Part shown: in pieces, positions 4,609-49,600 of the stretch | Numbering within the stretch: position 1 is the first letter of the stretch | Layout: every line of letters starts with the position of its first letter | Source of the DNA: Crocosphaera watsonii WH 8501 | GTDB taxonomy: Bacteria > Cyanobacteriota > Cyanobacteriia > Cyanobacteriales > Microcystaceae | Assembly (NCBI RefSeq): GCF_000167195.1 | Contig: NZ_AADV02000001.1 | Coordinates: 248,001-312,000 of the forward strand | Direction: 5' to 3' | Length of the DNA: 64,000 nt | Made by a program: the position numbers and the translations under genes | The notes under the pieces: model-generated | The model's input: only the letters and a program-made list of their open reading frames with translations | What the model was told of the DNA's origin: nothing | Databases searched by the model: none

Positions 4609-6420
4609 TTAAGCGTCGATAATCACCTTTCCTTGAGGATGAGCGATACAAGCTAAAATATAGCCCTCTTCTGCATCACTCTCATCTAAACCATCGGGAT
4701 CACCCTCATAACGAATGTCTACCTCTAGTTTCTTCACCTTACAACTCCCACATCCCCCACTGCGACAACTAGATTCCACCTCGATCATTTCTTCTTCAGC
4801 TAAATCTAATAAGGACATTTGTTCATTACAAAGAACCTCTTTTCCTGACTCTGCAAAAACCACCGGATAAGATGTATCATTACTCGGAGCCGTAACAGGT
4901 TTTGGTGTAGCAACATGATTATTTTTGGTGATATTATTATTGGGTGCGACAACAGATGAATTATCATTCTTCTCTTGAGAAGATGGGGGGCGTTTTTTCT
5001 TAGGACTTCCAAAACTTTCTTGATTATAGTTTTCCATGGGAAAACCTAATTCTTCTACTAATTTTTTGACCCCTTTCATGAAACTATCAGGACCACAAAC
5101 ATAGATAACTCTATCCTTATAATCGGGACAAATAGCTGGTAATAAAACCTCGTTTAGTCGTCCCTGAAAACCCCACCAAGGGTCTCCGGTTGTCTGACGA
5201 GTCATGGTTAAACCCAGATGAAAATTACTATGATTAGCTGCCATTGCTTCTAGTTCTTTTCGATAGATAATATCTCTCGGACTTCTAGCACTATGGACAA
5301 AAGTAATATATCTCTCAGCTACCGTATCTAAAGCCCAACGCGACATAGACATCATTGGTGTTATTCCACTTCCTGCTGAAATAAATAACAATTTAGTTGC
5401 ATTATTATCAACACAGGTAAACTTCCCTGATGGTCCTGTGAGGGTAATTTCATCCCCTACTTTAACATTATCATGTAACCAATTAGAAACTAACCCAGGT
5501 GGTGCATCTGGAACATCTGCTGGGGCTGGTACTCACTTAACTGTAATTTCTAAGGTATGGGGACGAGAAGGAGTAGAAGAAATTGAATAAGACCTCTTTA
5601 TTATCTTATCATTAATATTGAGATTTAGGGTAACAAATTGCCCTGGCTTATAATTAAATAGAGTGGGTGATGTTCCAGTAAAACGAAAGGTTTTAACATC
5701 CTTGGTGTCTTCAATGATGTTTAGGCAGCGAACTGTTATTTTCCCTTTGTTCCACCAGTTAATTCCTCCTAAAGCCGGAGGTTGTGATTGCACAATATTT
5801 GGAGTAGTTTCCTGTGGTTTTGAAGAGACTTTATTATTTATCTTTCCTGTGGGTAAAGGCGGAGAAATTACAGCCCCGTTAGAACCATTGCCCATAGAAG
5901 ATCCTGATTCTAGTTGATAGTTATCTGCCTTAGTTGTTGGTTCAAGAGTAACTTGATTCGCTGGTTCTGTTTTTTCTGAAGCTTTATCAGTAGAACGGCG
6001 ATTTTTTCTGGTTAATGCTTTAATATTTTGCAGACTCCTTTTATTAGAGGACTTACTCTTCTTAGTATTCTTACTCTTCCTATTTTTCGACTTCTTCTTA
6101 ATTGGTAATCCATCAACAATTAACACAAAGTCACCAATGCGAATAATATCATCCGTCTCTAAAGGATAAGACTTTTCCTTATTAACTCTTTCATCATTGT
6201 ACTGAGTGATTCCTTTCTCCGTTAAATCCTGAAAGTAATACTTACCCTTATCGGTAAACAATTTACCATGAACTTCCTGGACTTTAATACTAGGAAGCAT
6301 TAACCCACAACTGGGAGAATTACCAATCAAACACCCATAGTCCTTCAGACGGTGATCGCTTAATTCTAGTTCCTGATGTTCTAGGGGATGTTGCGGATTA
6401 AATAATTTTATTTTTAGCAT
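4609..6420 (-). pseudogene. FHA domain-flavoreductase-[2Fe-2S] ferredoxin fusion, interrupted by one in-frame TGA
   Basis: A 603-codon gene from the ATG at 6420 (an in-frame TTG lies 6 codons upstream). Order of domains: an FHA phosphothreonine-binding domain (GNSPSCGLMLPS, then VHGKLF), a Lys/Ser-rich linker and Pro/Thr-rich linker, an FNR-type FAD domain (YKPGQFVTL, RSYSIS), an NAD-binding half (AGSGITPMMSMS, CGPDSFMKG), and a plant-type ferredoxin domain with Cys ligands CRSGGCGSC and ILACIA. At 5533-5535 a TGA splits the frame after LEITVK; the downstream sequence VPAPADVPDAPPG continues in the same frame. Relatives have Arg there, so a CGA-to-TGA change is likely. An NADH-dependent electron donor controlled by Ser/Thr phosphorylation is inferred. 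Confidence 0.85.
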
Positions 6421-6536
6421 GGCACTAACTAAAATCAAAAAGGAGGTAAACAGTAAATCCTGATATTTTTAGAATCCCCAGAAAATTGCCAAAGTTAACA
6501 CACTTAAGATATCTTTAGATTGATTAATGAAAATTA

Positions 6537-35938: not shown

Positions 35939-37783
35939 TTAATAAACATCATGGAATTCTGGATCTTGCATCGGCAGAGTCCGTTTTTTACTCAATTTTC
36001 GTAACCAAAAGCCTCCAATAATAGCAATGGTTAAGGAGACAAATCCAGTGATAGATTGTAGTAGTAAAAATCCGCCGATGGCAAACATACTACCAAACAT
36101 AACTAAAGTAGCTGCTACCACTTTTAAGAGATCATTTTGTAAATTTTGTGCTGGTTCTAAACCGCTTTTGTATTGTTGATATTGCCAACCTATTCCCCCA
36201 GGACGAACCTTCTCGTAGAAATTTAATAAAGTTTGTTCATCTTCGGGAGGGGTTAAATACATAACCGTTATCCATACCAATGCTGTTAACACGGAAATTC
36301 CTAGTAACCGCCAACCAAAGTCAGGAAAAATATTATTAATGGCAGGATTAATAGTTGTAACTAAACCAATTAAAAACCCTGTAACCATGGCTGATAATTC
36401 TGCTGCGGCATTAATTCGCCACCAAAACCAACGTAAAATTAAGACAAGTCCGGGACCAGTTCCAATGGCAATTACTAAACGAAATACTGTCCGAACATCC
36501 GTTGCATAAAAAGCAGCAATTGAACCTAAAACCGTCACTAAAAGAGATGCTAATCTCACCGCATCGGTTAACTCTTGATCCGTCGCATCAGGACGGAAAA
36601 AACGACGATATAAATCATTAGTTAAATAAGAAGCACCCCAATTAATAGATGTGGAAATGGTACTCATAAAAGCAGCGATTAAAGAAGCAACCACTAACCC
36701 CAAAACTACCGAAGGTAAATAGTTTAACATCAAGGTAGGATAAGCTAATTCTGCATCTTCTAAATTAGGTAATAAAACCATTGCAGCTAAAGCAGTAATA
36801 ATCCAAGGCCAAGTTCTAACAATGTAGTGGAGAATGTTAAAAAACCAAGTAGCCTTTTCTGCTTCTTTTTTAGCTGCTTCGTCAGTTTCTCCTTTCACTG
36901 CTAACAATCTTTGCACAAATTCTCCACCCCCATCACTGCGACGAAAAGACCACCATTGCACAAATATATAAGCTGAAAATGTAGTGGCTGTAATACCGGC
37001 AGCATCGTTCCAAGTAAAGTTTAAACCGCCATTATTGGTGATAGGAATAAACGATAAAACATCAAAATCAGTTATTTGTTGAACATTAGGAATTAATTCA
37101 CGCACTCCTCCCGCATCATTCACCGCAATAACTGCCACTAACATCGCCCCAAATAGTCCTAAGAAAAATTGGAAAAAGTCCGTAACAACTACACCCCAAA
37201 GTCCTGAAACTCCGGTATAAATTAAAACAAAAACACTCAAAGCGATCACTGTCCAGAGTTTGGTTGCTTCTCCAGGATCAAAACCCAAACTTTGCCATAA
37301 CTGCAAAGCGTCCACCACCTTAACCATAGCTAACATAGCGTAACCGATACCAATACAATTGATAGGAACCGCGAATAAAAATGCCTTGGTTGCCCGTAAA
37401 ATGGCTGCTGTACGCCCACCGTAGCGTAATTCTGTTAATTCAGCGTCCGTGACCATTTCCGACCGTCTCCACAGCCCTGCAAACACATAAATTAGAACAA
37501 TGTGGGCGATACCAAAACTCCACCATTCCCAGTTTCCTGCAATACCCCGAGTAGCAACCACACCGCAAATATACAAAGGGGTATCGATAGAAAATGTCGT
37601 AGCGGCCATACTGGTACCAGCTAACCACCAAGGGAGGTTTCTTCCAGCTATGAAGTTGTAAACTATACTTGTCGGTTTGTCGTCTTCGTCATCAGTTTTA
37701 GTTTCTTGATGGGACAACAATAACCCCAAGGCCATCGTCCCAAAGAGATAAATTAAAATAATAATCCAATCTATAAGCTGCAT
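35939..37783 (-). CDS. Sodium:solute symporter family protein
   Basis: A 614-residue inner-membrane symporter of the SSS family, with about 13 hydrophobic helices. The start MQLIDWIIILIYLFGTMALG, the NLPWWLAGTSMAATTFSIDTPL sodium-site helix, and SVFVLIYTGVSGLWGVVVTDF match the family. The region YLTNDLYRRFFRPDA is also characteristic. The solute is not predictable. A tail of about 60 residues includes two more helices. It is divergent from the GT39 gene. Confidence 0.88.
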   Translation of the reverse strand: MQLIDWIIILIYLFGTMALGLLLSHQETKTDDEDDKPTSIVYNFIAGRNLPWWLAGTSMAATTFSIDTPLYICGVVATRGIAGNWEWWSFGIAHIVLIYVFAGLWRRSEMVTDAELTELRYGGRTAAILRATKAFLFAVPINCIGIGYAMLAMVKVVDALQLWQSLGFDPGEATKLWTVIALSVFVLIYTGVSGLWGVVVTDFFQFFLGLFGAMLVAVIAVNDAGGVRELIPNVQQITDFDVLSFIPITNNGGLNFTWNDAAGITATTFSAYIFVQWWSFRRSDGGGEFVQRLLAVKGETDEAAKKEAEKATWFFNILHYIVRTWPWIITALAAMVLLPNLEDAELAYPTLMLNYLPSVVLGLVVASLIAAFMSTISTSINWGASYLTNDLYRRFFRPDATDQELTDAVRLASLLVTVLGSIAAFYATDVRTVFRLVIAIGTGPGLVLILRWFWWRINAAAELSAMVTGFLIGLVTTINPAINNIFPDFGWRLLGISVLTALVWITVMYLTPPEDEQTLLNFYEKVRPGGIGWQYQQYKSGLEPAQNLQNDLLKVVAATLVMFGSMFAIGGFLLLQSITGFVSLTIAIIGGFWLRKLSKKRTLPMQDPEFHDVY

Positions 37784-37832: not shown

Positions 37833-39674
37833 GTGTTAAAAGTTGAGTCGTCTAAACAGTGGATAAATAAGTTGTCCCAAGTCAATGATTGGGTATTATT
37901 AGGGTTATGGATGGTTATTGGTGGTGTTCTCCGCTTTACAAATTTGGACGCTAAACCCCCTTGGACCGATGAATTTGCCACAATGGTGTTTAGTTTAGGA
38001 AATGATTTCCGGTCGGTTCCTCTGAATCAGGTTATTTCATTGGATACCCTTTTGCAACCACTTCGTGTTAGTGGCGACGTAGGAATAGGTAATGTTGTTT
38101 CTTTATTGCTACAAGAAGATAATCATCCTCCTTTATATTTTGTTTTAGTTCATTTATGGGTTCATTTATGGCAAGATGTGGGGGAATATGTGGATGTGGG
38201 GGTGGTGAGATCGCTTCCTGCTTTGTTGGGAATTTTATCTATTCCTGGGGTTTACTTTTTAGGAAAAATTGCTTTTAATTCTCGGTTAATTGGGCAAATA
38301 AGTGCTAGTTTAATGGCGGTTTCTCCTTTTGGTATTTTCTTGGCACAGGAAGCCCGTCATTACACCTTAAGTATTTTATTTGTGATTGCTTCTTTAATAT
38401 GTTTAATACTCACTCTTAGACATCTTTATCAACAGTCTATTATTCCTTTATGGTTAGTATTTAGCTGGATTTTGGTTAATAGTTTGGGTTTATCGGTTCA
38501 TTATTTCTTTGTTTTAACTCTCATCTCAGAAGTTATAACCTTAGCTGTTCTGATTTATGCTAAATATAGAAACAATTTTTCACAGTTAAGTAAACGAAAT
38601 ATCATCCGTATTTTAGCAGCTATTCTCGGAACATCTGCTACTGGTTTAGTCTGGATGTTGTTAGCCATTTCTCATGGTTACGGTAATAATATGATTACTT
38701 GGATTCATCCCTTAAGTCATATTTTATATGCTATTAGTCCCCCCTTGCAGTTATTAGCAGTTTGGGTTCCCATGATTTCTTTATTACCAGTTGAATCTGA
38801 TTCTATTCCTATTGTTATTCTTTCGGGTTTAATTTTACTGTTATTTTTTATCTGGTTAATTCCTTATAGTATCAGAGGTATAAAAAAAGGATTAAAATTG
38901 AATGAATTTCGTCTTCCACTGTTAATTTTAATGACATTTATTGGTGGGGTTATTGCTTTATTTTTAATCATAACTTATGGTGTTGGCGTTGACTTAACTC
39001 GTGCTGCTCGTTATAGTTTTACTTATTTTCCTGCGGTGATAGTATTAGTGGGTTTTAGTTTAGGTATTTTATGGCACGAAATTAAACAAGAAAATGAACA
39101 ATTACAAGCAAAAGAAACAATTAATCCTTTAATTTTATTGAGGAAATTGTATGATAAGTTGAACTGTAATGGTAAATTAGCCTTTTATGCTGTGTGGTTG
39201 ATGGGATTTCTAGGTGCAGTAACTGTATTGATTAATTTAGGGTATCAAAAATATTATCGTCCTGAACAATTAATATCAGTTATTGAAGAAAATTCATCAC
39301 AACCTGTTCTTATTGCTACCACTCACAAAAGTTTAGTCCAAGTAGGGGAAATGATGGGAATAGGATTAGAATTAAAGAAAGTTAGTAATCCCCCCAAACC
39401 CCCCTTTCTAAAGGTTGATACCCCCAAACCCCCCTTTCTAAAGGGGGGCAATAAGGAAAGAGAAAATCCTGAATTTTTATTCATTCATCAAACCCAAGAT
39501 AATGATCCACAATCAACTATAAAGCTACAAGAAACAGTTAATAATATGTCTAAACCCCTAGAAGTTTGGGCAGTTAATTTTAATGCAGAAATTGAGTTAA
39601 ATAATTGTACCCTTGACACAACAAAATATCCTTATATTGATGGTTACGGATATAAAAGATATATTTGTAATTAA
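37833..39674 (+). CDS. GT39-family membrane glycosyltransferase
   Basis: A 613-residue polytopic protein of the PMT/ArnT type. The first loop contains LDAKPPWTDEFATM, with the catalytic acidic pair, and EDNHPPLYFVLVHLW. About ten membrane helices follow, then a large C-terminal soluble domain. Such enzymes use polyprenyl-phosphate sugars outside the membrane. GTG start at 37833. Near residue 520 two tandem PKPPFLK peptides are coded by the genome's C-rich repeat. Confidence 0.8.
   Translation: MLKVESSKQWINKLSQVNDWVLLGLWMVIGGVLRFTNLDAKPPWTDEFATMVFSLGNDFRSVPLNQVISLDTLLQPLRVSGDVGIGNVVSLLLQEDNHPPLYFVLVHLWVHLWQDVGEYVDVGVVRSLPALLGILSIPGVYFLGKIAFNSRLIGQISASLMAVSPFGIFLAQEARHYTLSILFVIASLICLILTLRHLYQQSIIPLWLVFSWILVNSLGLSVHYFFVLTLISEVITLAVLIYAKYRNNFSQLSKRNIIRILAAILGTSATGLVWMLLAISHGYGNNMITWIHPLSHILYAISPPLQLLAVWVPMISLLPVESDSIPIVILSGLILLLFFIWLIPYSIRGIKKGLKLNEFRLPLLILMTFIGGVIALFLIITYGVGVDLTRAARYSFTYFPAVIVLVGFSLGILWHEIKQENEQLQAKETINPLILLRKLYDKLNCNGKLAFYAVWLMGFLGAVTVLINLGYQKYYRPEQLISVIEENSSQPVLIATTHKSLVQVGEMMGIGLELKKVSNPPKPPFLKVDTPKPPFLKGGNKERENPEFLFIHQTQDNDPQSTIKLQETVNNMSKPLEVWAVNFNAEIELNNCTLDTTKYPYIDGYGYKRYICN
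39387..39448. repeat. C-rich repeat inside the GT39 gene
   Basis: Two tandem 32-base units containing CCCCCAAACCCCCCTTTCTA lie in frame in the coding sequence. The same CCCCCCTTT-type sequence is found in intergenic MITEs, so it was captured into the gene. Confidence 0.7.
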
Positions 39675-40449: not shown

Positions 40450-40675
40450 TACATATAGTCCTTAAAGTCTTCTAAGGGTTCGTCAAAGTCATCACTAATA
40501 GAAATAATATCTTTATCACTTCCAAAAAGAGAAGGACGTTTTTTATCTTTTTTATTGAAACTAATTTTACCATTGGCTGATTATTTTCAGTGATAATGAT
40601 TTCTTCTCCTGTTGATGCTATCTCCAGAAGTTTTTTTATCTGAGGTAATGCTTGATTAATATCTATGGTTTCCAT
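40449..40675 (-). pseudogene. Phd/VapB-type antitoxin, frameshifted
   Basis: From the ATG at 40675 the frame gives METIDINQALPQIKKLL, GEEIIITENNQPMVKLV, then shifts near 40550 in an A-rich run and ends after an unrelated hydrophobic tail. In the other frame the proper C-terminus is still readable: KKRPSLFGSDKD, ISISDDFDEPLEDFKDYM, ending at TAATG on the vapC start. A single base is missing. The DNA-binding half is intact, the toxin-binding half is lost. Confidence 0.8.
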
Positions 40676-40693
40676 TTTTTATCGAAAAATAAT

Positions 40694-40941
40694 GGGTCTA
40701 AAACCCCGCCCTAACAGGCGTAATTGTGTTACAATCAGATTGTAGCAATATTCAGCTACCTACTGGGGGTCCCCCAGAAAGTGACGACTAACCCTGAATT
40801 GGCAGGGTGTCTGGAAACAGATGGATGTATGACCTAGTAAGGTAAGTACCAGTCAGCCTGAGTTACCTCGTATGAGAGTAGGTTTCAACAAGTAATTGTT
40901 GAATCAGAACCCACTCGCCTTTAGGCAGTGGAGTATGTCAA
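40694..40941 (+). mobile_element. tnpB-less element with omega-RNA-like 3' end
   Basis: Left part has AAACCCCGCC-CTAACA-GGCG and TTACAATC. The right part ends in a hairpin CCACTcGCC-TTTA-GGCAGTGG (40911-40931) followed by AGTATGTCAA at 40941, the form of IS200/IS605 right ends where a TnpB omega-RNA scaffold stops. Between lie structured repeats (CCTGAATTGGCAGGG; GAGTTACCTCGTATGAG) but no tnpB. Probably a small non-autonomous derivative. Confidence 0.55.
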
Positions 40942-41084
40942 ATTCCTTTTAAGCTGTTAAGCATCTAAATTACTATACTAGACTTACGGGGAGAGGGTTT
41001 GCTAATTTTTTGCTTAATTTCATGATATGTGGTTTAAATGAAACCTTAACCCAAACCCAACATTAAACCCAATAAAACCTATTT

Positions 41085-41112
41085 GTAGGGGTCAACGGCC
41101 GTTGACCCCTAC
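41085..41112. repeat. 28-bp perfect palindrome, CAACGGCCGTTG core
   Basis: GTAGGGGTCAACGG followed by its exact complement with no spacer. A second palindrome with the same 14-base core but different arms is at 57031-57060. Confidence 0.85.
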
Positions 41113-41228
41113 CGTACTAAATATTTAGTACAAAAAACAATAATAAATAAATCGATCCGGCTGACGGCGGAAACCACAAAGGTAAAAAATGAAAAGGGTA
41201 GAGAACAAGAGGATAAAAGAGTAAAGGG

Positions 41229-41363
41229 TCAAAGATTTCTCCCGAACACACATACTACCCGAAAACCGTAATTGACGTTGCGGACTTCGCGCCTAAGGAC
41301 GTCGTTGCGAAACGCGGAACGGCAGTAAACAGGATTTTCGCCCCAAGAAACGCTCCGCAGCAC
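41229..41363 (-). other. Candidate diversity-generating-retroelement variable repeat (VR)
   Basis: The last 44 codons of the kinase-FGE pseudogene encode NPVYCRSAFRNDVLRREV and then NVNYGFRVVCVFG. In FGE-type DGR targets this is where the variable repeat lies. Most variable positions (GTT, TAC, TTT, GAC, GTC, CTT, GTC, GTC, TAC) are NNY codons that A-specific mutagenesis could make from AAY, while the invariant frame (CRSA, GFRVV) is conserved. The local GC is well above the surroundings. No reverse transcriptase or template repeat is in the window. Confidence 0.6.
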
Positions 41364-42673
41364 TGAATATGATTAATTTTGCTTATTTTTAGCTAAATAT
41401 AAGGTTTCAAATTTCATCCAAGCACTGCCATCATTAGGCGCACCTTCATAGTTAGAATGGAAATCATCTCTAATGGATCAGGTTTAGGTTGAGGGGTTTG
41501 TATTTGAGGAGAGGAAGGAACAAAAGTCTTAGCTATTGGTTTTTCTGAGGAAGAAGAAGGAACAAAAGTCTTAGCAACTTGTTTTTCTGAGGAAGAAGAA
41601 GGAACAAAAGTCTTAGCAACTTGTTTTTCTGAGGAAGAAGAAGGAACAAAAGTCTTAGCAACTTGTTTTTTAACTGGAGGTTGAGGTGTTACTATTGGTG
41701 AACTTGTAACTTGAGATGTATCTAAACTATTTAGGTCATTTAATACTGCCTCTGCTGTTTGATAGCGGTTGCTTATATTCTGTGCCAACATTTTATCTAA
41801 AATATCTGCTAACCCTGGATTAATAGTTATTCCTTGTTCTTGTGCGTATTCTCTCCATCGCCAATCACTATGATTTTCGTCTAATAATTTATCAATAGTA
41901 TTGCCATATTCATCCTCATCATTGGGGAAACATTGAGTTAATAATCTAACTGCTGTTACCCCTAAACTATAAATATCACTAGCAGGTTTTGCTCTCCCTT
42001 GCATTTGTTCCATTGGTGCATAACCTGGAGTATAAATAACACTCCCTGCCATAGATTTCATGGTGGTACTTACTTGTTTAGATGCACCAAAATCTATCAA
42101 TATTAATTCTGCTGTTTTTCCTGATTCATAATTATTAGTCGAAACCCGACGCATGATATTCTCTGGTTTAATATCTCGGTGTAATATTTTTTGTTTATGG
42201 AGATAGTCCAAAACAGGCAATAATTCTCTTAAAAATAGCTTAATTTTTCCTTCACTAAACCGCCCTTTTTGCCAAACCTCATCAAATAATGTATCACCTT
42301 CAATAAATTCTTGAACCAGATAAAAATCATTATTATCTTCAAAATAAGCATAAAGTTTAGGGATTTGGGGATGATTTAATTCATAGAGACGTTTTTTTTC
42401 CCGTTTAAAGAGTTCTTGTGCCTTCTTTAAGTTAGCACCTTGCATTACAGTTACTAACTTCTTAATGACTCTTTTTTCATCCATTAAATGCTGATCTTCA
42501 GCTAAATATGTTCTACCAAAAGCTCCTTGTCCAAGTTTTTTAATGATTTTATAATGAACTTGAAAAATATATTATTGACTGCTTTGAGGTAATTTTTCGC
42601 CACAGCCATGACACTTTCTATTGTTATCGGGATTTTCTGGTTTGTTGCAACTAGGGTTGAGACAATATAGCAT
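41229..42673 (-). pseudogene. Ser/Thr kinase-FGE-sulfatase fusion, decayed
   Basis: The gene can be followed from the ATG at 42673. It opens with a zinc ribbon (MLYCLNPSCNKPENP, CHGCGEKL), then has a TAA at 42572-42574. The kinase domain follows in frame: KKLGQGAFGRTYLAED, HRDIKPENIM, LIDFGASKQ and GYAPMEQMQG. A 14-residue unit KQVAKTFVPSSSSE is repeated three to four times. The frame then shifts at about 41475 into an FGE-sulfatase tail (DDFHSNYEGAPNDGSAW), meaning about 150-200 codons were deleted. A TAA at 41373-41375 precedes the last segment, VLRSVSWGENP to VVCVFGRNL. Confidence 0.85.
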
Positions 42674-43132: not shown

Positions 43133-43196
43133 AGAGATTTGGAGTTCCTCGGAATGACAATTATCCATCATTAAGGAGTGATCAGTTATCAGTTGA

Positions 43197-43469
43197 ATGA
43201 AACCCTTTAACTAGAATAAGGACAAAAACCAACAACTACAACAAGAAAGAGGAATTAGCTTTGATAATATTATCCAAGCTATTGAACAAGGAAACCTCCT
43301 TGATGTTATCAAACACTATAACCCCGATAAATATCCCAACCAAAAGATTTTTATTGTTAAAATGGACGATTATGCTTATCTTGTTCTCTTTATGGAAAAT
43401 GACTTAGAGATATTTCTAAAAACAATTATCCCGAGTCGAAAAATGACAAAAAAATACTTAGGAGGTTAA
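43197..43469 (+). pseudogene. BrnT-like toxin gene with TAG at codon 6
   Basis: The frame from the ATG at 43197 reads MKPFN, then TAG (43212-43214), then NKDKNQQLQQERGISFDNII, KIFIVKMDDYAYLVLFME and IFLKTIIPSRKMTKKYLGG to a TAA at 43467-43469. Relatives begin with Trp-Asn-Lys at this point, so TGG-to-TAG is likely. The rest matches a small cyanobacterial toxin-like family of about 90 residues. It precedes an antitoxin-like gene at 7 bases. Confidence 0.75.
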
Positions 43470-43476
43470 TTAAATC

Positions 43477-43632
43477 ATGAATTCCCTTAATCATGAAGAA
43501 AAAGAACTTTTAGAAAGCGTTAAAAAAGAAGAATGGCAAAGTGTTGACAATGTATCCCAGGAAATTAAGCGTTATCAAACCTATGCTAGTCATCAAATAA
43601 ATCAGCAAAAAATAGAAGTAACTTTATCCTAA
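43477..43632 (+). pseudogene. Antitoxin gene, 5' part, split by TnpB element
   Basis: 51 codons (MNSLNHEEKELLESVKKEEW, then NQQKIEVTLS) up to the TnpB element. The rest of the protein is beyond the element at 45277-45393, in a compatible frame. The beginning is typical of the BrnA/CopG-like partners of this toxin family. Confidence 0.75.
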
Positions 43633-43805
43633 TGTCGGGCAGAATACCCCATCCTTCTACAAGGTGGGGATGAATGACCGACCAAAATATAAACTGACCT
43701 AAGGGAATCCTATTAGAGAAATACAGTGGCAATTCTTTCAATTAACCACTATAATAAGAAAAACAATATGCGATCAGATTCTTGAGTAGAAAAATCTAAC
43801 CAATA

Positions 43806-45233
43806 ATGATCATAGCTCACAAATACAAGTTAAAAGCAAGTCCATCTCAAGAAATAATAATGACCAACTGGTTATCTATGCTCAGAAGTCATTACAATTT
43901 CTGCCTGAGAGACAGGATTGAAGCGTATGAGCAAGTTAAATCTCCCAAACTAGGTAACTATTCGGACTTAAAAACAAAAGCCCCTTGTTGTCCGTTTACC
44001 TGTTCAATTTCTCCACAATCCCAATTAGGAGAACCCTTCAAAAAATCAGGTAAAAAACGTAATGCCTATGAAATGCAATCCTCTGAATTGCCCTTCTTAA
44101 AACAAGCTAGACCCTGGTACAAAAACATTCATTCTACAGTTCTACAGCAAAATTTAAGGCGACTTAAAACGGCTTTTCAAAACTTCTTTGATGGTAGAGG
44201 ATATCCAAAGTTTAAGACTCGTCAAAGATTTAAAAGTTTTAGCTATCCTCCCAATCAAGTTAAATTGGAGTTAAACAAAATCTATCTTCCTTCTATCGGT
44301 TGGATGAGATTTTTTAAGTCTCGAAATATTCCTGATGGATTTCAGTTAAAGACTGTAACGGTTCGCTCATTAGCTGATGATTGGTACGTTTCGATAAGAA
44401 TAGAAAATAAGGATGTTCCTCAATCAAGTCCGAAGGATTTAAAACAGATCAAAACAGCCATTTCGGGAGACTTAGGAATCAAGAAGCTATTAGCTTTGAG
44501 CAATGGAGAATTGATAAAAAATCCTCAATTTGAGAAACGCTTGTCAAACAGAAAAGCCATTAGACAACGTAGAGCATCTCGTAAAAAAAGAGGCTCATCT
44601 AACCAGAAAAAAGCCTATACTAAATTAGCTCGTATTGACCAAAAAATAGTTAATCAAAGAGAGGATTATCAATGGAAAGTCGCTCACCACCTTGTTCGTT
44701 TATCTGATGTAATTATTTTAGAAGACCTAAACATACAAGGAATGATTAAAAAATGTCGTGCTAAACAGGATGAGAACGGCAAATTTCTTAAGAATGGTCA
44801 ATCAGCAAAAAGAGCATTAAATCGATTAATCAGAGATTGTTCTTGGGGAAATCTTATAGAAAAAATTGAGTCGGTAGCTGCAAAGTTTGGGTCGATTTGT
44901 TTAAAGGTTAACCCTAAATTTACATCCCAAAAATGTTCGCATTGTGGACATATTCAAAAAGAAAACCGCAATAAAGAACGCTTTTTGTGTCTTAATTGCG
45001 GTTTTCTGGCTGATGCTGACGTTCAAGCTAGTGTGAATATCGGTACTAAAGGACTTGAAACTCTTGGAATTAGTCAATCTAGGCTACTGATGGTCAATCA
45101 GAAAGTTACGCCCAAACCTGAATTAACAGGTTCTAGTCATAGGGAAACATCAGTCTCGTTGGAGATTGAGCCTGGGAACCCTCAGCAATTAAGTTTGTTT
45201 GAGTGGGTGAATGGGGAAGTGATTCCCTGTTAG
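43806..45233 (+). CDS. tnpB: TnpB RNA-guided endonuclease
   Basis: 475 residues. An N-terminal helix-rich part opens MIIAHKYKLKASPSQE. The RuvC site is complete: Asp near 222 in SGDLGIKKLL, Glu near 306 in IILEDLNIQGM and Asp near 404 in ADADVQASVNI. A zinc ribbon CSHCGH...CLNCG lies between the second and third. TnpB cleaves DNA guided by an omega-RNA from the right end and helps the element persist. The C-terminal extension of about 60 residues is seen in cyanobacterial members. No frame lesions. Confidence 0.93.
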   Translation: MIIAHKYKLKASPSQEIIMTNWLSMLRSHYNFCLRDRIEAYEQVKSPKLGNYSDLKTKAPCCPFTCSISPQSQLGEPFKKSGKKRNAYEMQSSELPFLKQARPWYKNIHSTVLQQNLRRLKTAFQNFFDGRGYPKFKTRQRFKSFSYPPNQVKLELNKIYLPSIGWMRFFKSRNIPDGFQLKTVTVRSLADDWYVSIRIENKDVPQSSPKDLKQIKTAISGDLGIKKLLALSNGELIKNPQFEKRLSNRKAIRQRRASRKKRGSSNQKKAYTKLARIDQKIVNQREDYQWKVAHHLVRLSDVIILEDLNIQGMIKKCRAKQDENGKFLKNGQSAKRALNRLIRDCSWGNLIEKIESVAAKFGSICLKVNPKFTSQKCSHCGHIQKENRNKERFLCLNCGFLADADVQASVNIGTKGLETLGISQSRLLMVNQKVTPKPELTGSSHRETSVSLEIEPGNPQQLSLFEWVNGEVIPC

Positions 45234-45273
45234 AATCCCCAACTTCAGCGCAGCAAGTTGGGGTACTTCAACC
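45100..45273 (+). ncRNA. Predicted omega-RNA scaffold region of the TnpB element
   Basis: In characterised IS200/IS605 systems the omega-RNA overlaps the tnpB 3' end and closes with the right-end hairpin. Here that hairpin is CCCCAACTT/AAGTTGGGG at 45236-45265. The following bases, CGTAGAAGATAGTC, would be the guide, which is the antitoxin gene sequence. The 5' boundary is a guess. Confidence 0.45.
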
Positions 45274-45393
45274 GTAGAAGATAGTCAAAAAATTCAAAAT
45301 CTCTCTCATAAGCTTGGTCAATCTATTAGTAATTTAAGTCAAGACATTTTACATAAATATTTACAAGGTGAATTAATTGAAAGAGAACGATAG
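45274..45393 (+). pseudogene. Antitoxin gene, 3' part
   Basis: Reads VEDSQKIQNLSHKLGQSISN, then DILHKYLQGELIERER and TAG at 45391-45393. This is the C-terminal half of the antitoxin that starts at 43477. Joining TTATCC to GTAGAAGAT restores VTLSVEDSQK. Confidence 0.75.
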
Positions 45394-45405
45394 AGAAAAA
45401 TTGAT

Positions 45406-47462: not shown

Positions 47463-47604
47463 GAGTTTTGAAACACCGACAAGGCCGAGACTCGCAAACT
47501 CCTATCGTTGTATACTATTTTGACATCTTAGGCTCGGCTTTTTCATGGTGAGGCTGGGGAACAAGAAAAAAATTAGGTGCAGCCGTTGATTGTCAAGCAG
47601 GTTT

Positions 47605-49600
47605 CCCGAATTTCTCACAAAATCTGCGATCGCCAAACACAGAAGCCTTACAGGAAGTGGGTTTGAACAGAGCGATCGCAGATTTCCCCAACCAACAGTC
47701 TGTTGTCAGATTTTAAGTTAAAATCAACCCGAATTAGACAAAGATGAAAAGATAAATCAATCACTCATTTTTCCAAAAAAATTATTAATAAAATCTCTAA
47801 TAGTACTAGATTGTTAGAATAAAATATGCTATAATTTAATTATTAAAGCAATTTATCTTAAACTGATTTAATGAGTCCCAGTCATCCCCGAACCCCTCGT
47901 CAAGTAATCAACTTTAGTAAACAGAAAGGAAAAGAAATAATCGCTAATTTTGATGGGGGACTAATCACTTCAGATGCGGGGATTGTCTGGATAGCTGAGT
48001 TGGATAAAAAACTGGGAATTACGGAGAAGTTTGGTAACTGTTTTCAAGATCATCGTCATCAATCTTATGTAGATCATTCCGTTCATGAGTTATTAGCACA
48101 AAGGCTTTATGGAATTATTTTAGGCTATGAAGATGTCAATGACCATGATAAATTACGTCACGATCCTGCCCTTAAGATCGCTTTAGAAAAGCTTAATGAA
48201 CTTGAAGATAAAAAGGGATGGTTAGCTGGAAAAAGTACAATTAATAGATTGGAATATTGTCCTGAGACTATTCTCGACCAAAAAACGAGTCGTTATCATA
48301 AAATAGAACCCAACTTTGAAGCCATTGAAAAATCTTTTGTCGAATTTTGTTTAGAGTCTTATAAAAAACCTCCCTTAAGTATTATATTAGATATGGATGT
48401 CACGGATGACCAAGTACATGGTAATCAAGAAGGGGCATTTTTTAATAGTTATTATCACGGAGTATGTTATGCTCCTTTATATATTTTCTGTGGGCATCAT
48501 TTATTAGTGGCTAAACTTCGTTCATCTAATGTAGATCCAGCCGATGGAGCCTTAGACGAATTACAAAGAATTATCGGACTAATTAGAGAAAAATGGTCAG
48601 AGACTCATATCCTAGTTAGGGGTGATAGTGCCTATGCCCGTGAAGAAATCTTCTATTTTTGTGAAAATCAGCCTTTAGTTGATTATGTTATAGCTATGGG
48701 AACAAATGGCGTTCTTAAGTTACGAGCGGATGATGTAATTGAAAAAGCCAAACATGAATATGAAAAAAAACTAGCTCCAATAACTGAATTAATGGATAGT
48801 TTATTTCAGAAAAAAGAAGATTTAGAAGAAGTTAAAAAATTAGTACCAATTTCTACTTGGTATCGCTCTATTCGTTATAAAACAGAAAAGTCATGGAGTT
48901 GTCAAAGAAGAGTAGTGACAAAAGTTTGTTATGGAAGTGATGGCTTAAAAATGCGCCATGTGGTGACATCTTTGCCCGCTTCAAAAATTCCACCCTCAAA
49001 ACTTTATACAAAAAAATACTGTCCGAGAGGCGAGATGGAAAATCGGATTAAAGAACAACAATTAGACTTGTTAGCTGATAGAACTTCAACTCAAACATTT
49101 CAAAGTAATCAACTAAGATTATGGATACATTCCTGGGCTTATGTTCTCATAAATGCTTTTCGTCAACACTGTTTAAAAAAAACTTCATTGGCTAAAGCAA
49201 CTGTGGGAAGAATACGTCTAAATCTTCTTAAGTTGGGAGCCAGAATAAAGATTAGTTGTAGAAGAATTATTATCGCTATAGCTAGTGCTTGTCCTTATCA
49301 AGATATTTTGTCTATTGCTAACAAAAGAATTAAAACTATTCCTAATACTGGATAAGTAGAATAAGTTGTTTTCTAAAAAAGATATCTATCATAAGTTGTT
49401 GACTGACTGATACTTTCATTTAGTCTTATTTATCGTGGAGAAAATCAAAAGTTAATATAATTATTCCCTCTTAAACTCAATTTTTGGATAATCAAAGTCA
49501 ATTTTTTTATTCATCTATATTCAAAATTTCTATTAGTCCTAAAAATTATCATTTTTCATCTCTGGATTGGGCTTTCAAATTAATTTGTGAGAAATCCGGG
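47605..49600 (+). mobile_element. IS1380-family element, copy A (about 1996 bp, intact)
   Basis: Ends are CCCGAATTTCTCACAAAA (left) and the inverse of CCCGGATTTCTCACAAA (right). The 5' noncoding part contains two GCGATCGC-centred repeats (TCTGCGATCGC) facing each other at about 47630 and 47675. Flanking bases GTTT and GTTA do not match perfectly, so a target duplication is not certain. Confidence 0.88.
47871..49355 (+). CDS. IS1380-family transposase, intact
   Basis: 494 residues, uninterrupted. It begins MSPSHPRTPRQVINFS. Catalytic DDE positions are likely in LDMDVTDDQVHGNQEG, LVRGDSAYAREEIF and GEMENRIKEQQLDLL. The N-terminal FDGGLITSDAG and HSVHELLAQRLYG are the IS1380 signature. The second copy at 52348-53061 is identical over its length except for one Cys-to-Phe change. 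Confidence 0.93.
   Translation: MSPSHPRTPRQVINFSKQKGKEIIANFDGGLITSDAGIVWIAELDKKLGITEKFGNCFQDHRHQSYVDHSVHELLAQRLYGIILGYEDVNDHDKLRHDPALKIALEKLNELEDKKGWLAGKSTINRLEYCPETILDQKTSRYHKIEPNFEAIEKSFVEFCLESYKKPPLSIILDMDVTDDQVHGNQEGAFFNSYYHGVCYAPLYIFCGHHLLVAKLRSSNVDPADGALDELQRIIGLIREKWSETHILVRGDSAYAREEIFYFCENQPLVDYVIAMGTNGVLKLRADDVIEKAKHEYEKKLAPITELMDSLFQKKEDLEEVKKLVPISTWYRSIRYKTEKSWSCQRRVVTKVCYGSDGLKMRHVVTSLPASKIPPSKLYTKKYCPRGEMENRIKEQQLDLLADRTSTQTFQSNQLRLWIHSWAYVLINAFRQHCLKKTSLAKATVGRIRLNLLKLGARIKISCRRIIIAIASACPYQDILSIANKRIKTIPNTG

Follow-up and report, generated by a model that had tools for sequence, protein, structure and literature searches.

A probable retired target of a diversity-generating retroelement at the end of a kinase-FGE pseudogene of Crocosphaera watsonii WH 8501

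The end of a kinase-FGE pseudogene of Crocosphaera watsonii WH 8501 (41360-41234, minus strand) is read from its sequence as a variable repeat (VR) of a diversity-generating retroelement (DGR), and the gene appears to be a retired target of such an element. Very probably the VR was written by mutagenic retrohoming, the DGR was then lost from the lineage, and the target gene is dead. The original prediction, that a dead kinase-FGE gene ends in a former DGR VR, was borne out by intact cassettes with matching A-rich templates in genomes of the same genus, and by the syntenic orthologue, which is itself a VR gene.

Genomes compared

The window, which is the whole 64,000-nt stretch analysed, corresponds to G000:C323:248001-312000 of the WH 8501 genome, a 6.24-Mb draft of 323 contigs with 99.95% completeness. 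The genus comparison set consisted of nine genomes (G000-G008), one genome per species and WH 8501 (G000) included. Among the relatives are unicellular cyanobacterium SU3 (G001), Cyanothece sp. BG0011 (G002), Crocosphaera sp. MO_202.B2 (G003), and Crocosphaera sp. MO_188.B44 (G006). MO_202.B2 is a metagenome-assembled genome, and mis-assembly is therefore possible; its contig C155, used below for synteny, is 108 kb long. Three template types (1, 2, and 3) were distinguished. The features of the window locus are listed in Table 1.

Table 1. Features of the kinase-FGE pseudogene and its 3' end in the window
Feature	Position	Strand	Basis
Pseudogene N-terminal part: short Cys-rich N-terminus, Ser/Thr kinase, linker with 42-bp repeats	41469..42673	-	Pkinase, translation, repeats
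In-frame TAA, codon 34	42572..42574	-	Sense codon in BG0011 and MO_202.B2 orthologues
FGE-core deletion junction, frameshift	41468..41469	-	About 691 bp present in BG0011 orthologue missing
In-frame TAA just before VR, in the VR's frame	41373..41375	-	DNA sequence
Predicted DGR VR (type 1), end of FGE-type domain	41234..41360	-	Template-A versus other-site differences
VR-type 3' end (IMH-like)	41232..41243	-	VR-type G kept; three type-1 templates have A or T
Pyrimidine-rich tract 3' of VR	41172..41228	-	60 nt, 82% pyrimidine
Decayed hairpin behind the VR (6-bp stem, one pair mismatched; 4-nt loop)	41156..41171	-	Position and sequence

Variable repeat in the window

Minus-strand positions 41363-41229 encode the FGE-type tail VLRSVSWGENPVYCRSAFRNDVLRREVRNVNYGFRVVCVFGRNL followed by a stop. 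On a 114-site core, the window VR differs from the template of MO_188.B44 at 18 of 34 A sites and 7 of 80 other sites (p = 7.6e-7), and from that of SU3 at 17/33 and 9/81, respectively (p = 1.0e-5), the templates coming from sister genomes only and the non-A sites themselves varying by species. In a like cross-species comparison, the SU3 VRs differ from the MO_188.B44 template at 5/80 non-A sites. Confinement of the mismatches to A, on which the DGR reading had been made to depend, is thus strong but incomplete. The comparison on this core excluded VRs of MO_202.B2 versus their own template (3 nt longer), as well as VR-like hits of G005 and G008. When seven VRs were taken as reference instead of templates, the A contrast was weaker (p = 2.4e-3 to 3.0e-2). 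The NNY pattern of codons pointed out earlier is real. Across the 14 AAY codons of the relative's template, the window VR is changed at 16 of 28 first and second positions, but at only one of 14 third positions with the MO_188.B44 template (p = 1.8e-3) or two of 14 with that of SU3 (p = 8.7e-3).

The non-A differences from the MO_188.B44 template at core positions 50, 74, 101, and 110 are common to a second VR of the WH 8501 genome, at C321:51005, as is expected from one lost common template, and they are best read as features of such a template in this lineage. Those at core positions 6, 10, and 23 are absent from the C321:51005 VR and look like drift. Since all templates are from other species, the split of the 7-9 non-A differences between template divergence and drift is not certain. 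At its 3' end, the segment keeps the VR-type G and is distinct from the template ends, as IMH is from IMH*. Its G+C content is 0.45-0.46 in 150-base windows and mostly 0.30-0.39 nearby, yet 0.41-0.47 at 40650-40949; the segment is indeed higher in GC than its surroundings, but the enrichment is moderate and matched close by.

Intact cassettes in the genus

All nine genomes, WH 8501 included, were matched by a probe designed to detect an A-rich template, and three clustered matches were located in SU3, MO_188.B44, and contig C177 of MO_202.B2. The SU3 cassette (L090) has the order VR gene, Avd, reverse transcriptase (RT), template, VR gene. The MO_188.B44 cassette (L091) contains the same parts on the opposite strand, and the C177 cassette (L092) also has the same parts, with the RT match split in two pieces. 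The Avd of SU3 scores 136.2 bits, while the NCBIfam DGR Avd cut-off is 80. The SU3 RT carries the motifs IGNLTSQ and YVDD; SQ replacing SP is a mark of DGR RTs. The two VRs of SU3 differ from their own template at 11/33 and 19/33 A sites and 0/81 others, and those of MO_188.B44 at 13/34 and 18/34 A sites and 0/80 others, i.e., all four differ only at A. MO_202.B2 has further cassettes on contigs C39 (type 2) and C34 (type 3). Four VRs of these cassettes, and one type-2 VR of G005, differ from the templates at 8-16 A sites and one non-A site each. As a side observation, the stretch between the two RT pieces of the C177 cassette (L092:9721-10877) is missing from the match, possibly an early step of DGR decay.

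Whole DGR RTs with 65-100% identity are present among the nine genomes in SU3, MO_188.B44, and MO_202.B2, and Avd is present in three of the nine. In G005, a C-terminal RT piece (54%) lies close to where a contig ends, and another place matches at 30%. No DGR RT match above 31% identity was found in G000, G002, G004, G007, and G008, where G004 and G007 are 89% and 79% complete, respectively. VRs without such a match also occur in G002, G004, G007, and G008.

DGR components and other VRs in the WH 8501 genome

No DGR RT was found among all 40 RVT_1 places of the WH 8501 genome. The idea of a DGR RT hidden among these genes was rejected, as 32 of 40 carry QGGV[IV]SP, which we take to be the group II intron form of RT, and the other eight are fragmentary, degenerate, or the second part of one gene. 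The sister DGR RT gave 23 matches in the genome, the best with E 2.8e-12 at 27% and none above 30% identity. For Avd, there were no matches in this genome. Probes of template types 1, 2, and 3 gave VRs, chance-level matches of 14-18 nt, or no match at all, and a template present as a distant match was rejected on this basis, one scan of the template search having scored 40 of 71 first-look candidates. A phage-borne DGR copy was rejected too, on one scan of viral contigs that gave 14 loci with 28-46% RT identity, below the 65-100% of the whole DGR RTs of the genus. One group-II-like RT ORF (L060, C321:286000-289500) lies beside a 322-aa frame which, by eye, resembles a ribonucleotide reductase small subunit.

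RT, template, and Avd of a working DGR were each looked for in this genome and not found. The template and DGR RT that the original prediction proposed to search for were thus missing from the draft assembly, while both are present in relatives, and absence here together with presence in relatives is what is predicted for a retired target. A genome with neither had been named as a refutation; this is literally the state of the draft, yet such a demand is too strict for a former target. In a draft of 323 contigs, failure to find a single cassette does not prove that it was lost.

The genome holds four VRs, i.e., that of the window and those at C321:51005, on C211, and at C321:178377. DNA paralogues of the window segment are C321:51005-51169 (80% identity) and C211:4231-4388 (78%). 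Both end FGE genes, and homology among the three continues beyond the stop codon. The FGE gene on C211 is broken by an in-frame stop. The C321:178377 VR (type 3) ends an intact 673-aa ORF and differs from the C34 template of MO_202.B2 at 16/32 A and 3/88 non-A sites (p = 1.2e-8). Among 11 FGE places of the genome, the tail was located by the tail motif in six (L033 overlaps L031). Three FGE tails of this genome that have no close template also show some A bias (L026, p = 0.047; L027, p = 0.15; L031, p = 0.0057); the alignments behind these figures are short or contain gaps, and they have 10 to 21 differences at sites other than A.

Pseudogene and its orthologues

The gene ending in the window VR was called dead from the outset, and its lesions confirm it: two nonsense codons, 42574-42572 and one just before the VR, and about 691 bp of FGE core missing with a frameshift. 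The junction was placed by blastn blocks, in which window 41469-41544 corresponds to 6423-6498, and window 41243-41468 to 5506-5731, of the BG0011 orthologue locus (L131). The pseudogene retains a Ser/Thr kinase domain (Pfam Pkinase, 6e-45), and its Cys-rich N-terminus is, on reading of the translation, zinc-ribbon-like. Head-to-tail 42-bp repeats at 41510-41670 in the linker coincide with several gaps against the MO_202.B2 orthologue.

The locus is syntenic with contig C155 of MO_202.B2, where dxs and the kinase-FGE gene are followed by homologues of window genes 37833-39674 and 35939-37783, with DNA about 90% identical. The segment stands at the end of a kinase-FGE pseudogene whose orthologues are intact, as a 665-aa ORF in MO_202.B2 and a 672-aa ORF in BG0011, both with FGE-type ends. 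The tail of the BG0011 orthologue is 71% identical in DNA over window 41243-41468. The tail of the MO_202.B2 orthologue differs from the type-2 template on C39 of the same genome at 15/25 A and 5/85 non-A sites (p = 2.5e-8, with uncertain alignment gaps), which makes the orthologue a remote target of a DGR with a different template family. About 2.2 kb of the window with a TnpB-family gene (43160-45402, gene at 43806-45233) are absent from the syntenic MO_202.B2 locus, where the flanks are adjacent, and a transposase-like region at 47604-48904 (ORF 47871-49355, by reading) is 99.6% identical to a copy at about 44-45 kb of C321.

Between the window and MO_202.B2, the flanks at 41417-41468 and 41039-41173 match at about 90%, but the span between them has no blastn match at E 1e-8. 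Matching flanks around an unmatched span indicate that one of the two lineages has exchanged its VR family here. One locus would thus be served by two DGR templates, with a type-2 VR in MO_202.B2 and a type-1 VR in the window lineage. The exchange may have happened through retrohoming, or a paralogue may have recombined with the locus.

Elements downstream of the VR

A pyrimidine-rich tract follows the window VR. The next 60 nt are 77-92% pyrimidine behind all nine type-1 VRs measured (WH 8501, SU3, MO_202.B2, and MO_188.B44), versus 42-43% behind three templates. Beyond this tract, six VRs of the three type-1 cassettes have a 6-bp hairpin. Its pattern YCCGCC-N3/4-GGCGGRTSG has eight matches in the nine genomes, all behind a VR, one of them behind the MO_202.B2 orthologue of the window gene; the reversed-pattern control gave none, and a general genomic repeat was rejected on these counts. 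In the window, the inverted repeat downstream of the VR is in the expected place with one mismatch, and its fold does not differ from shuffles (z -0.04; C211, z -4.15; MO_202.B2 orthologue, z -4.52). The hairpin was absent behind all five VRs of G002 (two), G007 (two), and G004 (one), and by eye also behind the VR-like tail of the BG0011 orthologue. In a scan of five type-2/3 cassette VRs (MO_202.B2 and G005), four were without it and one has a 5-bp stem with a 5-nt loop. These cases speak against a general role of the hairpin. It may be regarded as a candidate cis-element, its matches being seen only behind VRs; it may also be a terminator.

The hairpin loops at L090, L092, L091, and L037 form complementary pairs (GAA/TTC, TTT/AAA) on a near-constant stem, as though its centre had been flipped. 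A perfect 14+14 nt palindrome, GTAGGGGTCAACGG/CCGTTGACCCCTAC, lies at window 41085-41112 and is also present behind one MO_188.B44 VR and behind the MO_202.B2 orthologue.

Origin of the VR and alternative explanations

In the course of events that we favour, the RNA of an AAY-rich template, of the kind that sister genomes still have, would have given a cDNA with bases inserted at random opposite A. This mutagenized cDNA would then have taken the place of the final part of the FGE (C-type-lectin-like) domain, presumably with a role in sensing, in the kinase-FGE gene. RT, Avd, and templates would later have been lost from the window lineage, and, presumably in this order, the target would have become a pseudogene through loss of the FGE core and new stop codons, with a decaying post-VR hairpin. 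It is improbable that the DGR was not lost, with RT and template in an assembly gap or an unsequenced replicon and VRs perhaps still written in trans. Such a gap could exist in a draft of 323 contigs with many repeats, e.g., the 40 RVT_1 places, a high completeness score says little on one accessory cassette, and the VR of the intact gene at C321:178377 is only 3/88 non-A sites from the template of another species; against it, none of RT, Avd, and template types 1-3 was found in the genome, two of its four VR genes (window and C211) are broken, and G002, G004 (89% complete), G007 (79% complete), and G008 hold VRs without a DGR RT match above 31% as well. An ordinary FGE tail, diverging by selection or drift with NNY codons from Asn-rich loops and with no DGR ever acting, is more improbable still. 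The mild A bias of FGE tails without a close template and the distance of the window gene from any DGR-type RT would suit it, but the DNA-level match to DGR templates with its differences at A, the kept third positions of AAY codons, the shared post-VR tract, and the orthologue that is a VR gene all argue the other way.

Gene conversion with a paralogous target, instead of retrohoming into the window copy, is a possible though doubtful source of the VR. It would agree with the MO_202.B2 orthologue, which shares flanks of about 90% yet has another VR family between them, and with the window tail, which aligns with C211 of the same genome over 41139-41468, past the VR on both sides. On the other hand, at sites that are A in both templates, the window VR differs from C321:51005 at 17/33 and from C211 at 20/33; by these differences, neither would be the direct donor, unless rewriting followed. 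Conversion is compatible with the favoured retrohoming and loss of the DGR, as it could bring the VR, with rewriting afterwards.

The exchange at the kinase-FGE locus led us to a tentative proposal that DGR targets may change hands, the hairpin and pyrimidine tract serving as a shared landing site through which one DGR takes over the target of another; we hold it less probable than not. The exchanged span would begin only a little ahead of the VR and extend no farther than the post-VR hairpin, the flanks being about 90% identical. If true, orphan VR genes would persist as a reservoir open to a newly acquired DGR. As a rule, loss of a DGR is deduced from how patchily such elements are distributed. 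In the present case, a single genus has intact cassettes (SU3 and MO_188.B44), a cassette with split RT (C177 of MO_202.B2), and a genome of four VRs in which no machinery was found. The sequence of an orphan VR may be the last one that the DGR wrote before it disappeared, so that the time since retirement could be estimated from drift outside the A sites. A candidate cis-element, found behind VRs only, and a locus with different VR families in different species are further features of this genus.

Comparison with known systems

Cyanothece sp. CCY0110 belongs near Crocosphaera. The DiGReF list (PMC3521204) credits this unicellular cyanobacterium with two DGR RTs and with two VRs for each RT; these DGRs are intact, and the available part of that source contains no comparison with a DGR-less relative. 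DGR1 of Nodularia spumigena has an FGE-sulfatase target (PMC3610870, in the part available) and is like the window in having an FGE-sulfatase-type gene as target, but it belongs to a filamentous species with RT and many copies of the template element. Among open-licence papers, this one was the only match for Crocosphaera and DGR together, and its available passages do not treat a Crocosphaera DGR; the mention of C. watsonii WH0003 was rejected as a DGR record, as it stands in a passage on a PsbC-PsaL fusion protein. In the accessible parts of the open-licence literature, including PMC4372165 and PMC10907252, we found no account of a genome in which VRs of several template families occur without a DGR.

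The post-VR hairpin/cruciform of the BPP-1 DGR has 7-10 bp stems and GRNA loops and lies 4-34 bp from the VR (Guo et al. 2011, PMC3240598, in the part available), while hairpins of archaeal DGRs have trinucleotide loops (PMC4372165, likewise in part). The genus hairpin resembles that of BPP-1 as a GC-rich inverted repeat downstream of the VR, and its 3-nt loops resemble the archaeal ones; unlike BPP-1, it has 6-bp stems and 3-4-nt loops that are mostly not GRNA, and it lies past a pyrimidine tract of about 60 nt. Measured against the BPP-1 dimensions, it would be a variant placed farther from the VR.

The available part of Vallota-Eastman et al. 2020 (PMC7517822) describes DGRs of cyanobacteria whose targets join a kinase or an orthocaspase to a C-type-lectin-like domain; Crocosphaera is not mentioned in its main text. 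Some of its systems are like the window in having a kinase fused to a C-terminal VR-bearing lectin-like domain, and remote VRs. The same passages report a degraded DGR cassette in Anabaena sp. 90 and, at all3226 of Nostoc PCC 7120, a remnant VR without nearby RT. The Nostoc genome still has DGRs, whereas no RT, Avd, or template was found in that of WH 8501. As far as these passages go, targets with kinase and lectin-like parts, VRs at remote sites, and one remnant VR have been described before for cyanobacterial DGRs (PMC7517822), and the window segment would be a fossil member of this group.
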